Source: an uncultured Alphaproteobacteria bacterium (lineage in GTDB: Bacteria > Pseudomonadota > Alphaproteobacteria > MPNO01 > UBA2964). From it: DNA of 64,000 nucleotides. The stretch's first letter is position 1; every line of letters begins with the position of its first letter. The position numbers and the translations under genes are program-made. Of this stretch, positions 6,361 to 46,866 are shown piece by piece. Under the pieces are notes generated by a model. The model ran no database searches and was not told the origin of the DNA. It saw only the letters and a program-made list of their open reading frames with translations. The stretch lies in assembly GCA_951812775.1 (NCBI GenBank), contig OX638326.1, positions 1,190,335-1,254,334 on the forward strand. Direction: 5' to 3'.

Positions 6361-6537
6361 TTCCGATATAATCGGAGATTCAGAAATTGAATCGTCGGAA
6401 TCCTTTACATTATTTCAACAGACCCCTTCTTGAATTCCTGTAACCAATTGAAAACAAATATTTTAAGTGAGGTGGCATAATTCTTGCTTATTTTATAGGC
6501 GGAGCCGTCTGTGCTCCGACTGAATTTTACGGCGGAA

Positions 6538-7337
6538 ATGTTGTCGATGATGGTTTTAAGGCTCAGGAGCAGGATGATTGCGATGCTAATCGCCGCCTTT
6601 GGTGCGATCATTGCCTATTCTGGCCCGGCGCATGCCGTCGCAACCTATAACGCCAGTTCCTATGCAGCAGTGACAATTACAGGTTTCAGCACAATATCGG
6701 GACCTGTATCAAAGCCGCCAACTCTCACAATTATCGGGACCGCTGAACCAAGTTTATCTGAAAGCGGGACGACGGTTAGCGGCACTGGGACCGCCACCAT
6801 CACTGAAATCACTGATGTGATTTCCCTTACGCCCTCGGCCATTCGCATGTTGCCACCGCTAGCGGTGGTGCTGCTGGTCCGGGCGGCCAGTCCTATTCGG
6901 ATCAGGTCACAAACGGTGAGATTTTCTTTGGAAATGCTGGTACCGAAGATATCACCGTAACGTTAGGAATTGACTGGGCGTATGCGGTAATGGCATCTAC
7001 ATCCGGGCCCAACCGAATAGCTAAAGCGTTCGCCAGTATAATTGTTGATACAGTTATTTTTGATTCGATCGGCGAACAGGTTGGAGAAGATATTTTTCAT
7101 GTCGATGAACTGGCGATAGCCGATGGAATCGGCGGCAGTTTTGAAGACCTGTCCGACACCACTACTTTGTCTGTTGATGTAGTTGTTCTCGCAGGGTCAG
7201 TGACAAGCGTTGGCCTTTTTGTCGATGCAAGAGGAAGTGCCGAGGTTTCTGCACCTCCTTCATTGTTAATATTTTGTCTCGAAATTATCGCTACGGGATT
7301 TGTGCGTCGGCAACTCGTTAAATCAACTGCGGCGTAA
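6538..7337 (+). pseudogene. Exported PEP-CTERM-like protein gene with internal frameshift
   Basis: The first frame begins at the ATG at 6538, preceded by GGCGGA, with a convincing signal peptide (hydrophobic MIAMLIAAFGAIIAYS, then AHA/VA cleavage). It proceeds through a Ser/Thr/Gly-rich beta-type sequence to about 6840. From there a different frame continues the same style without a stop (GHSHVATASGGAAGPGGQ, then the region from 6990) and ends at 7337 with APPSLLIF, a hydrophobic helix and RR. That tail resembles a degenerate PEP-CTERM sorting signal with PEP replaced by APP. The two frames join only if one base was lost between about 6816 and 6845. As written the product would stop at 6960 without its anchor. 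Function unknown. Confidence 0.7.
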
Positions 7338-7600: not shown

Positions 7601-8623
7601 TTAGTGCCGCCGGGGAACCTTCAAATAGTCGTGGCGATCCCCTGAACGAATAACGACATCAATCTGGCGCGACCCCCGAACAACACTAATGCTGACATCA
7701 GCTCCCGCGCCACCGACTGCCCAGATTTTACGATACATGTCCGGTAGGCTTTCAACTGTCTGGGATTCAATTTCCTCAACAATGTCACCCACCTGGATAT
7801 CGGCTCTGTCAGCGGGTCCACCATCATGAACGCCCGAAACAACGAGATGCCCAATGGCTTCCGTCGTTTGCATTCCCAGCCACGGTTTTGCAGCCTTTTG
7901 CGCTCGACCAGTATCGATGAGTTCTTGATAAATCGGCGGTAGCAAATCCACAGGGACAAACATGTTGCCCTGACTCTCGGTACTGTTTCCGCCAGGATCC
8001 TGAACAAATAGGGAGCCAACACCAACGAGAGCACCTGTTCGCGGATCAATCAGAGCACCGCCACTCCATCGAGGGTGCAAAGGCGCCGTAAAAACAGCCG
8101 ATTCCAATAAGTATTCCCAAGACCCAGCGAATTCGCGCCGGTCGACGACATCACCCAAAACAGCAGATGGAATACCGCCTGACGCTGCGACGACAACTTT
8201 GTCCCCTGGCAAGACGTCATCAACATTGGATGCTAATGCAAGTGGCGTCAAATCAAGAGGTTCAACCGTTCGGACCAAACCGAAACCGGTACGGTGATCA
8301 TATCCGACAACCTGAGCCGGAACTTCCTTACCCCCAGAGCCGCCGATAAAAATATCAGTCGCTTCTGTGATGAGATAACCAATCGTGACCAGAGTCCCGT
8401 CAGCATCGATTAAGACGGCATTGCCTTCTCGTTCCGTTCCGAGATTTCGGGCGCTGTGAGCATCGGCGGGAATTTTCGACCGCAGTGATCTTACGGCGGC
8501 CAAGCCCACCTCAAGGTCAAATGAAACGTCATCTTCCGTAGGCTGTGGCCCAGGCATTGGCGGTTCACCAAGGGGCAAAATCCCGTCGAGCCTGTGACCG
8601 TTTGCCCGTGTTACTTCTGTCAA
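7601..8623 (-). CDS. HtrA-like trypsin-fold protein with PDZ domain, catalytic triad degraded
   Basis: A 340-residue protein with an S1C (DegP/HtrA) fold followed by one C-terminal PDZ domain (about residues 245-330: PWLGMQTTEA, GGPADRADIQVGDIV, VRGSRQIDVVIRSG). Aligned by eye with DegP, the catalytic histidine position is Tyr83 (in IGYLIT), the aspartate is Gly113 (RTGFGL), and only the serine remains, S187 in RWSGGAL. It should therefore not hydrolyse peptides and may bind them as a chaperone or sensor. No signal peptide is visible. The start is a TTG preceded by GGGGA. It is convergent with the small gene to the left. Confidence 0.75.
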   Translation of the reverse strand: MTEVTRANGHRLDGILPLGEPPMPGPQPTEDDVSFDLEVGLAAVRSLRSKIPADAHSARNLGTEREGNAVLIDADGTLVTIGYLITEATDIFIGGSGGKEVPAQVVGYDHRTGFGLVRTVEPLDLTPLALASNVDDVLPGDKVVVAASGGIPSAVLGDVVDRREFAGSWEYLLESAVFTAPLHPRWSGGALIDPRTGALVGVGSLFVQDPGGNSTESQGNMFVPVDLLPPIYQELIDTGRAQKAAKPWLGMQTTEAIGHLVVSGVHDGGPADRADIQVGDIVEEIESQTVESLPDMYRKIWAVGGAGADVSISVVRGSRQIDVVIRSGDRHDYLKVPRRH

Positions 8624-9010
8624 TTTGTTTCCCCGTAAAGTGTATGGTGAATCTAGGCGCTGATCTCATTATCGAGAGACATGAAGGCGGTGACAACAAT
8701 TGAAACGAACCAGACAATTTTTGTCCTGAAAATATTGGTCGAATGGTGCCCAAATTTCAAAATTTTGCATGAACTCTATTTCTGGTTGATGGAACCTTCT
8801 TCCATACTCCCGTTTCTATCCTTTTCTTTCGAAATTTCTCCTTGGTATTTGTAAAACAATAATAAAATTAACCTATGTAACAGCGATTTTACTTGCCTAT
8901 TTGCCCAAAACAGCTGATTGTACCGGACAATATATTTTGATTTATAAAAATCTGCATCAGAAGGGCGGGGGAATTCTGGTCTGATTCAGGGTTATAAGGC
9001 GTTTATCTGG
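8624..9010. other. AT-rich intergenic region upstream of the metzincin gene
   Basis: About 390 bp without a coding frame I can support. It is the divergent gap between the HtrA-like gene and the PEP-CTERM metzincin relic and is visibly AT-rich from about 8800 to 8960. A small GACAA/TTGTC hairpin is seen near 8722. No RNA gene or repeat family was recognised. Confidence 0.5.
8918..8946 (+). promoter_or_regulatory. Candidate sigma-70-type promoter for the metzincin gene
   Basis: TTGTAC at 8918-8923 and TTTATA at 8941-8946 are separated by 17 bp, about 65 bp ahead of the ATG at 9011. The match is fair and the surroundings are AT-rich, so this is a by-eye candidate only. Confidence 0.3.
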
Positions 9011-9863
9011 ATGCTCCGCTCGTTCGTAAAATCAGCTCCGCTCGTTCGTAAAATCGATTGTCATATTACTTGTGCTCGTTGGGATTTCAACAGGTCCCAA
9101 TAGTCGCGCTTATGCGCTGACCCTTGTAATCGACTTTGATCCTACCGTAACCATATTCGGGAATGCCATGACGCCGTTTGACTCTGCCCCTTATGGTGCA
9201 AGTCTTTCAAGGTCAGCGGTTATCACCGATATCATGGACGGATTGAGAGAGGACTTTCACAACATATCATCTCCATTAATTCCCAGTGGCAAACAACTGG
9301 ATATAAATTTCGAATTGGGAACGATCGGAGATGGCGGTGTCACCGCAAATGGCGATAGTAATTATTTTTATATTGCTGTAGGCAGCGCAAATGATGGCGG
9401 CGCCCCGCTGGGGGAAGCATTCGGACCACCCTCAATTGCGCTTCCAGTAAATTCTTTTGCCCCTGGCACTACCCTTGGTGCGATCTATACCGACCAAATT
9501 GACAACCTCGTTGTAAATGTGAATAACGCTTTTGAAACGAGAAATTTGATACTTGGAACTCTGTCGCACGAAATCGGCCACACAGTAGGGCTGACACATT
9601 GTGCCGTGGCAGGATCCACAACGCCCAATGGCCTTGACCCCGTTATGGCAACCGGCGCCATTGATTTGCCGAATGCCGCCCGACTGAATGACCGAGAATT
9701 TGGATCTTCATGTAATACCGGTTCAGGCACTCAAAACAGCATCCAAACATTGGTCACGAATTTGGGTCTGGCTGACACGCCGGTTGTCCCTGAACCAACA
9801 ACCATTTTGATACTGGCGGCGGGTCTCGCTGGTGTTAGATTTATGCGTCATCGCGTGGCATGA
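9011..9863 (+). pseudogene. PEP-CTERM metzincin-type metalloprotease, start knocked out of frame by 22-bp duplication
   Basis: The open frame up to 9863 carries the zinc motif HEIGHTVGLTH (HExxHxxGxxH, around 9567-9600), as in matrixin-like proteases. It ends with VPEPTTILILAAGLAGVRF and basic residues, a textbook PEP-CTERM sorting signal. The natural start is ATG 9011: with one 22-bp unit removed it reads MLRSFVKSIVILLVLVGIST and on to a cleavage site at RAYA, a complete signal peptide. In the sequence as given, that ATG runs into a stop after about 30 codons. The only in-frame start left is GTG 9072, which loses most of the signal peptide. Probably exported and surface-anchored when intact; the substrate is unknown. 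It may be a dead gene or a slippage switch in the off state. Confidence 0.75.
9013..9055 (+). repeat. 22-bp tandem duplication across a signal-peptide start
   Basis: Two identical 21-bp copies beginning GCTCCGCTCG lie at 9013-9033 and 9035-9055, giving a period of 22 bp. The first copy carries the last base of an ATG (9011-9013). Because 22 is not a multiple of three, the duplication moves that ATG out of frame with the gene downstream. Removing one unit restores the open frame. Confidence 0.9.
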
Positions 9864-45522: not shown

Positions 45523-46866
45523 ATGAGCCTCCTCAGCATCAACCCGGCGACTGGCGACGTTATCGCCACCTACGATGAGCTTGACCCTGCGACAACAGCG
45601 GCGAAGACCGCTGCGGCTGCGACAGCCCAAGCGGACTGGCGGAAGACCTCCTTCGAAACACGTGCCGAAGTCCTGCATAACGTTTCGAAAATCCTCCTGG
45701 ACGAGAAAGAAAAACTTGGTCGTATGATGACCGAGGAAATGGGAAAGCCGCTCGTACAAGCCATCGGCGAAGTAGAGAAATGTGCCCTCAGTTGCCGACA
45801 CTATGCCGACCATGGTGCTGGGCTCTTGGCCGACGAACCGGTGAAAACCGAATCTGACAGCTTCATTCGGTATTTGCCGATCAGGGTTTTGCTCGCTGTC
45901 ATGCCCTGGAACTTTCCGTTCTGGCAGGCTTTCCGTTGCATCGCGTCATCGGTCATGGCCGGTAACGCTGTTCTCTTGAAACATGCCTCCAACGTACCCA
46001 CCAGTGCGCTTGCCATAGAGGATATTTTGACTCGCGCGGGCCTACCGGACGGTGTTTTCCAGACCCTGCTTATCGGTTCTGGTCAGGTCGCGGCAGTTAC
46101 ATTAACCGGGAGCGAGGCCGCCGGTGCTAGCGTTGCTAGCGTCGCCGGTAGCGTTCTGAAAAAATGCGTTCTCGAACTCGGGGGCAATGACCCCTTTATC
46201 ATTCTGCCCAGTGCAAATCTGGAACAGGCCGTTGCAACTGGAATTACGGCCCGCGTCATAAATAATGGCCAGTTCTGTGTTTGTGCCAAACGGTTCATCG
46301 TTCACGAGGACATCTACGATCAGTTCGAAACCATGTTTACCGAAGGCCTCGAAGCATTGCAGTTGGGTGATCCGATGCTGGACAGTACGGATCTCGGGCC
46401 CCTCGCCAATGCCGACGGGTTAGAAACGCTGGTTGACCAGGTGGATCGGTCCGTTTCCGCAGGTGCAAAACTTCTCACAGGGGGAACACCATCAGACGGC
46501 CCAGGATATTTCTATCCAGCAACAGCGCTGACCGATGTAACGCCGGAGACAGCCGCCTATAGCGAGGAGGTCTTTGGTCCGGTTGCGGTCATCCTGAAGG
46601 CAAGGAACTTTGATCGTGCCATCGAGCTTGCGAATGACAGCCCGTACGGGCTTGGCAGCAGTATCTGGACCTCTGACCTGGAAGAACAGGACCGCGCCGC
46701 TACCGAAATTGAAGCCGGACAAACATTCATCAATGCCATGGTAGCCTCGGACCCACGCTTACCATTTGGTGGTGTAAAGCTGTAGGGTTATGGGAGAGAA
46801 CTCGGCGTTTACGGAGCACGAGAATTCACAAATATAAAGACGGTGTTGCGCCCGAGTGCTTCTTAA
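45523..46866 (+). pseudogene. Aldehyde dehydrogenase (succinate-semialdehyde-DH-like) with premature amber stop and internal deletion
   Basis: The frame gives 420 residues to LPFGGVKL and a TAG at 46783-46785. Beyond it the same frame continues as GYGRELGVYGAREFTNIKTV and on to a TAA at 46864-46866, the normal ALDH C-terminus; the usual Ser of VKLSGYGRE (TCG) has become TAG. Around IGSGQV-AAVTLTGSEAAG (near residue 188) roughly ten residues usual in SSADH-like enzymes (the V...ADPRV part) are missing. The catalytic Cys block is GQFCVCAKRF rather than GQSC. Two independent lesions suggest a decaying gene. It abuts the tRNA-Glu att site. Confidence 0.82.

Follow-up and report, generated by a model that had tools for sequence, protein, structure and literature searches.

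Probable decay, rather than an on/off switch, of a PEP-CTERM metzincin gene split by a 22-bp tandem duplication in an alphaproteobacterial genome that has lost XrtA

The cargo proteins of the XrtA/PEP-CTERM system (Haft et al. 2006, PMC1569441) consist of a signal peptide, a little-known body, a C-terminal PEP motif, a transmembrane helix and a basic tail. The protease gene studied here shares these features, the signal peptide when one copy of its repeat is read. PrsT persists in its genome, with PrsK, PrsR and the deacetylase of the system surviving as remnants; the genome differs from the system in that XrtA is absent, PrsR and PrsK are broken, and the cargo is orphaned. Chlorobium tepidum is one organism in which the PEP-CTERM domain only was noted (Haft et al. 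2006, PMC1569441). The repeat itself recalls the pneumococcal capsule genes. Passages of two papers (PMC4022640, PMC4243769) cite Waite et al. (2001, 2003) for reversible tandem sequence duplications in cap3A, cap8E and tts. As those passages have it, a spontaneous tandem duplication within an open reading frame abolishes a surface trait, and reversion was observed; here, in contrast, there is one sequenced genome, the cargo has lost its sorting enzyme, and duplications of the same sort occur all over the genome. The body of the protein resembles the metzincins (adamalysin/reprolysin, matrixin) in its HExxHxxGxxH motif, in profile matches to adamalysin II and acutolysin and in ADAM/MMP fold matches, but its matches are weak and mostly under curated cut-offs, and its structure model has low confidence (pLDDT 52.6).

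The window, the whole 64,000-nucleotide stretch that was analysed (C1:1190335-1254334), comes from a genome, here G000, of 4,149,033 bases in one contig that is 99.6% complete. The relatives are uncultured Alphaproteobacteria/Rhodospirillaceae MAGs from GTDB. The features are collected in Table 1. TRF gives the repeat at the protease start a period of 22, 2.0 copies, a 100% match and a score of 86, the highest in the window, where the second-best array scores 48; it is not a chance repeat. The two copies, 9013-9033 and 9035-9055, are 21 bp long and identical; the A between them, at 9034, has no match, so the origin is either a 22-bp duplication with one substitution or a 21-bp duplication with one inserted base. 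The frame is broken by that extra base, since a 21-bp duplication alone keeps the frame. Because of the repeat, the frame opened by the ATG at 9011 ends after 30 codons at the TAG at 9101-9103, and the ATG with half of the signal peptide is split from the 263-codon metzincin/PEP-CTERM frame. The protease frame is open from 9030 only, because the TAA at 9027-9029 closes its upstream side. Its sole in-frame start codon of the usual kinds, the GTG at 9072, has no Shine-Dalgarno sequence visible before it and comes after most of the signal peptide. The N-terminal signal peptide of a cargo protein is divided by the duplication in G000, and there is an out-of-frame tandem repeat of the sort that a phase-variable gene carries in or just before its frame.

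Table 1. Features at the protease locus and its neighbourhood (window positions).
Feature	Position	Strand	Evidence or remark
Neighbouring PEP-CTERM cargo gene, frameshifted	6511..7337	+	tblastx frame 3 -> 2, net -19 nt vs G007
Intact HtrA-like protease gene (Trypsin_2 + PDZ)	7601..8623	-	85-90% identical to congeners
ATG-started frame with the true N-terminus MLRSFVKS	9011..9103	+	Sequence; homologous position, MLRS start in G003
22-bp-period tandem duplication	9013..9055	+	TRF, exact-run scan; absent in four congeners
Protease frame, 277 codons stop to stop	9030..9863	+	In-frame start GTG 9072 only
HEIGHTVGLTH metzincin zinc-binding motif	9567..9599	+	Alignment; weak Reprolysin/Matrixin profile matches
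PEP-CTERM sorting motif VPEPTTILILAAGLAGVRFMR	9786..9848 (about)	+	PF07589 5.5e-5, TIGR02595 1.3e-4

Orthologues of the protease were found in four of the eight congeners searched (57-59% identity) and in one genome of the same family (47% identity). All five are single-copy and uninterrupted from start codon and signal peptide through to the PEP-CTERM tail. In all four congeners, only one copy of the repeat is present, and 30 residues lie between the position aligned with the ATG at 9011 and the ALT or ALM of the ...RANALT segment. When the window is read with a single copy, it likewise gives 30 residues to ALT, and the orthologue of G003 also starts MLRS. Since the orthologues are single-copy with that spacing, the extra 22 bases are a derived insertion in the G000 lineage, and they separate the signal peptide from the frame of the protease. 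A search of genome contigs with the single protein and one of viral contigs found no relative; a query made from the alignment recovered the same congeners together with distant planctomycete and Tateyamaria homologues. In Tajima relative rate tests against three sisters, the protease has diverged faster in the G000 lineage in two cases (47:22, p 0.0035; 48:22, p 0.0025) and not significantly so in the third (41:27), and the test with the more distant outgroup G009 was not significant. The neighbouring HtrA and QueG genes, the first of which also anchors the synteny and serves as a rate control, show no significant acceleration in the same test.

Of the zinc motif, HExxH and the third H are retained in all six aligned sequences (the protease and its orthologues), and a Met stands at a candidate Met-turn site (DPVM) in five of the six. 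Both PEP-CTERM profiles exceed their cut-offs, as expected of a cargo protein. The best fold matches (ADAM/MMP/psychrophilic protease, E 7.7e-3) come from the low-confidence structure model, a prediction too weak to use. A sequence-only reading of this DNA had described the duplicated 21-bp copies and the broken frame, an intact signal peptide on deletion of one of the copies, as well as the metzincin motif and the C-terminal anchor. These parts of it are borne out; its suggestion that the repeat is a reversible switch is not supported.

The exosortase locus was examined by synteny. In the congener G007, a canonical XrtA locus encodes PrsR, PrsK, PrsT, XrtA, the XrtA-system deacetylase, an ATPase, an outer-membrane protein and a tyrosine autokinase. 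The syntenic locus of G000 lies at about 2326000-2349000 of C1 and carries a deletion scar at 2336935-2338596, where 63 bases now lie between residue 213 of PrsK and residue 75 of the deacetylase. This deletion fused remnants of PrsK (from residue 213) and of the polysaccharide deacetylase (residues 17-75), and XrtA and neighbouring genes fall within the deleted part. A second deletion took the N-terminus of the autokinase together with the genes beside it. PrsT is intact, while there are frameshifts in PrsR and in several further genes of the locus. The whole G000 genome gave no match to PF09721, TIGR02602, TIGR04178 or the congener XrtA protein, and so the exosortase that a cargo protein would have in its own genome is missing. 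In G003, XrtA was lost by a different and larger deletion, independent of that in G000. G002, a MAG that is 98% complete, has no exosortase detectable by PF09721 or TIGR04178, and its enzyme is either unbinned or missing; the genome has 22 PEP-CTERM sites, and 18 of the 21 that were inspected are intact. The protease orthologues of G003 and G002 are intact although XrtA is deleted in the one and none was detected in the other, and therefore exosortase loss does not quickly inactivate the protease. A literature search for loss of PEP-CTERM cargo following exosortase loss found nothing. A genus in which one species keeps the exosortase locus and different deletions have removed it from two others constitutes a natural experiment, and the set bears on the value of PEP-CTERM proteins without their sorting enzyme. 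In the best assembled of the species that lost the exosortase, decay is under way in the cargo genes, in their regulator and in the polysaccharide locus.

The damage in G000 extends to many other PEP-CTERM genes, as well as to PrsR. About 28 PEP-CTERM sites over the cut-off were found in this genome. Frames without an intact start and signal peptide, as called by one automatic and heuristic rule, number 11 of 26 in G000 against 7 of 53 in three congeners (Fisher p 0.0085). The lesions are of several kinds: a nonsense codon in the gene at 690356; single frameshifts at 265644, 1501933, 1460647 (within the PEP motif) and 4079054 (just past the signal peptide); an out-of-frame 73-bp direct duplication at 2104173; and truncations at 739133, 205224 and 4130162. 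In G007, G003 and G002, the gene syntenic with the frameshifted cargo gene beside the protease is intact. Poor assembly was considered as the source of the broken frames and rejected. Conserved genes were intact in 132 of 134 comparisons, and therefore poor assembly is no explanation and the genome at large is not broken.

Short duplications are a feature of this genome. A scan for exact close repeats covered 1.264 Mb of G000 and 0.4 Mb of each of three congeners. It found 34 short exact tandem duplications in G000, plus one 336-bp array, against 0, 0 and 2 in the congeners (1.2 Mb in total; p 2.6e-8), a 16-fold excess that is to be read with the possibility that the congener assemblies differ from G000 in sequencing technology. 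The periods are 8-35, mostly 15-24, and there are usually exactly two copies. The GC content of the duplications, 42%, is below that of the genome, 51.5%, and extrapolation to the whole of G000 gives about 110. At a density of about 28 per Mb, the 22-bp repeat is one of many and therefore no special device. Stretches around the 27 other PEP-CTERM sites contain 1 duplication in 67 kb, to which the window gene adds one, so these loci are near the background density and the repeats are not placed specially at contingency genes. Neither loss of the PolA 5' nuclease nor loss of MutS accounts for the excess, the domain and the gene being present and intact. A literature search for comparable short tandem duplications in bacterial genomes found nothing. 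The excess is a separate, testable property of the genome. We offer as a tentative idea, more doubtful than not, that an unusually active process in this lineage makes exact two-copy duplications of about 15-28 bp and that the gene-breaking ones, that of the protease among them, make up a genome-wide stock of revertible alleles. If true, such duplications would amount to a diffuse, unevolved form of reversible inactivation, undone by loss of one copy. The array at C1:1300001-1302406 is perfect, with at least 7 copies, and we take its units to be Calx-beta-like repeats.

In a reversible phase-variation switch, loss or gain of a 22-bp copy would toggle export of the protease, with the sequenced cell in the OFF state. 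This is possible in principle because the cited passages (PMC4243769, PMC4022640) document reversible duplications, attributed to Waite (2001, 2003), by which pneumococcal capsule genes phase-vary, and the locus does have, where the gene of a predicted surface protein begins, a tandem repeat whose period is not a multiple of three, followed by an intact frame. However, the four congeners examined all carry one copy, neither varying nor sharing the duplicated state; two copies in every relative, the finding named as refuting the sequence-only reading, did not turn up. With one copy there is nothing left for slippage to act on, and therefore a return to OFF would not be frequent. Similar duplications also occur genome-wide with no enrichment at PEP-CTERM loci, the exosortase is missing by deletion, other cargo genes have been broken by lesions of non-repeat kinds, and there are two copies only, imperfect at the junction base. 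Nothing at the locus specifically favours a switch, and we regard one as very unlikely. A spurious second copy, arising in assembly or sequencing, is slightly less credible again. The density of exact short duplications in the G000 assembly and their near absence from three congener assemblies would fit an artefact, but the conserved genes are intact, and there is an unmatched base between the copies. Moreover, periods that are multiples of three are over-represented (18 of 34, p 0.014), an excess that is expected because coding sequence would filter real mutations; selection would yield it, and artefacts would not.

Least probable of all is that the gene functions as it stands, from another start (the GTG at 9072 or a rare ATT or ATA) or by ribosomal frameshifting. 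In favour of this are the retained zinc motif and a frame that stays open from 9030 onwards. Starts at the GTG and at the upstream ATT/ATA codons were nevertheless rejected, having neither a Shine-Dalgarno sequence nor a signal peptide; a start at the GTG would forgo most of a signal peptide that every orthologue retains. A programmed frameshift was rejected as well, since the relatives are without the repeat and therefore no conserved frameshift site can exist. By a wide measure of confidence, we favour the duplication being a recent loss-of-function lesion in a PEP-CTERM metzincin cargo gene orphaned by exosortase loss. Taken alone, the protease locus looks like a case of ordinary inactivation, by gene decay and not by an on/off switch. 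With XrtA lost by deletion, the cargo would have come under relaxed selection, and the protease gene would then have been struck, presumably recently, by the short-tandem-duplication process of the genome. Translation from the ATG at 9011 would now give a dead peptide of 30 residues, and translation from the GTG at 9072 at most a protein that lacks a signal peptide and is not exported. The 263-codon frame is without stops and keeps the zinc motif, and therefore either the lesion is young or the frame still matters. Reversion through loss of one copy would be physically possible as a rare mutation, not as an evolved switch.

A few other observations concern the window. Upstream of the protease start, the block GGGGGA..TCTGGTCTGATTCAGGGTT at 8950-9011 is partly conserved in the four congeners and is a possible regulatory or leader element. 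A sigma-54 promoter ahead of the protease gene was rejected, as no match to TGGC-N7-TTGC occurs there in the window or the congeners. Sigma-54-like sites have been described for PEP-CTERM genes (Haft et al. 2006, PMC1569441), and the broken gene at 6511-7337 has one, TGGCATAATTCTTGC, at about 6473-6487. The short frame at 13725-14384 matches the C-terminal part of DUF1501 in its second half. Its start looks like a different, DUF1800-like protein, and the frame is probably a deletion fusion. The aldehyde dehydrogenase at 45523-46785 ends early at ..PFGGVKL, covering profile positions 11-439 of 461, and is possibly truncated at its C-terminus.
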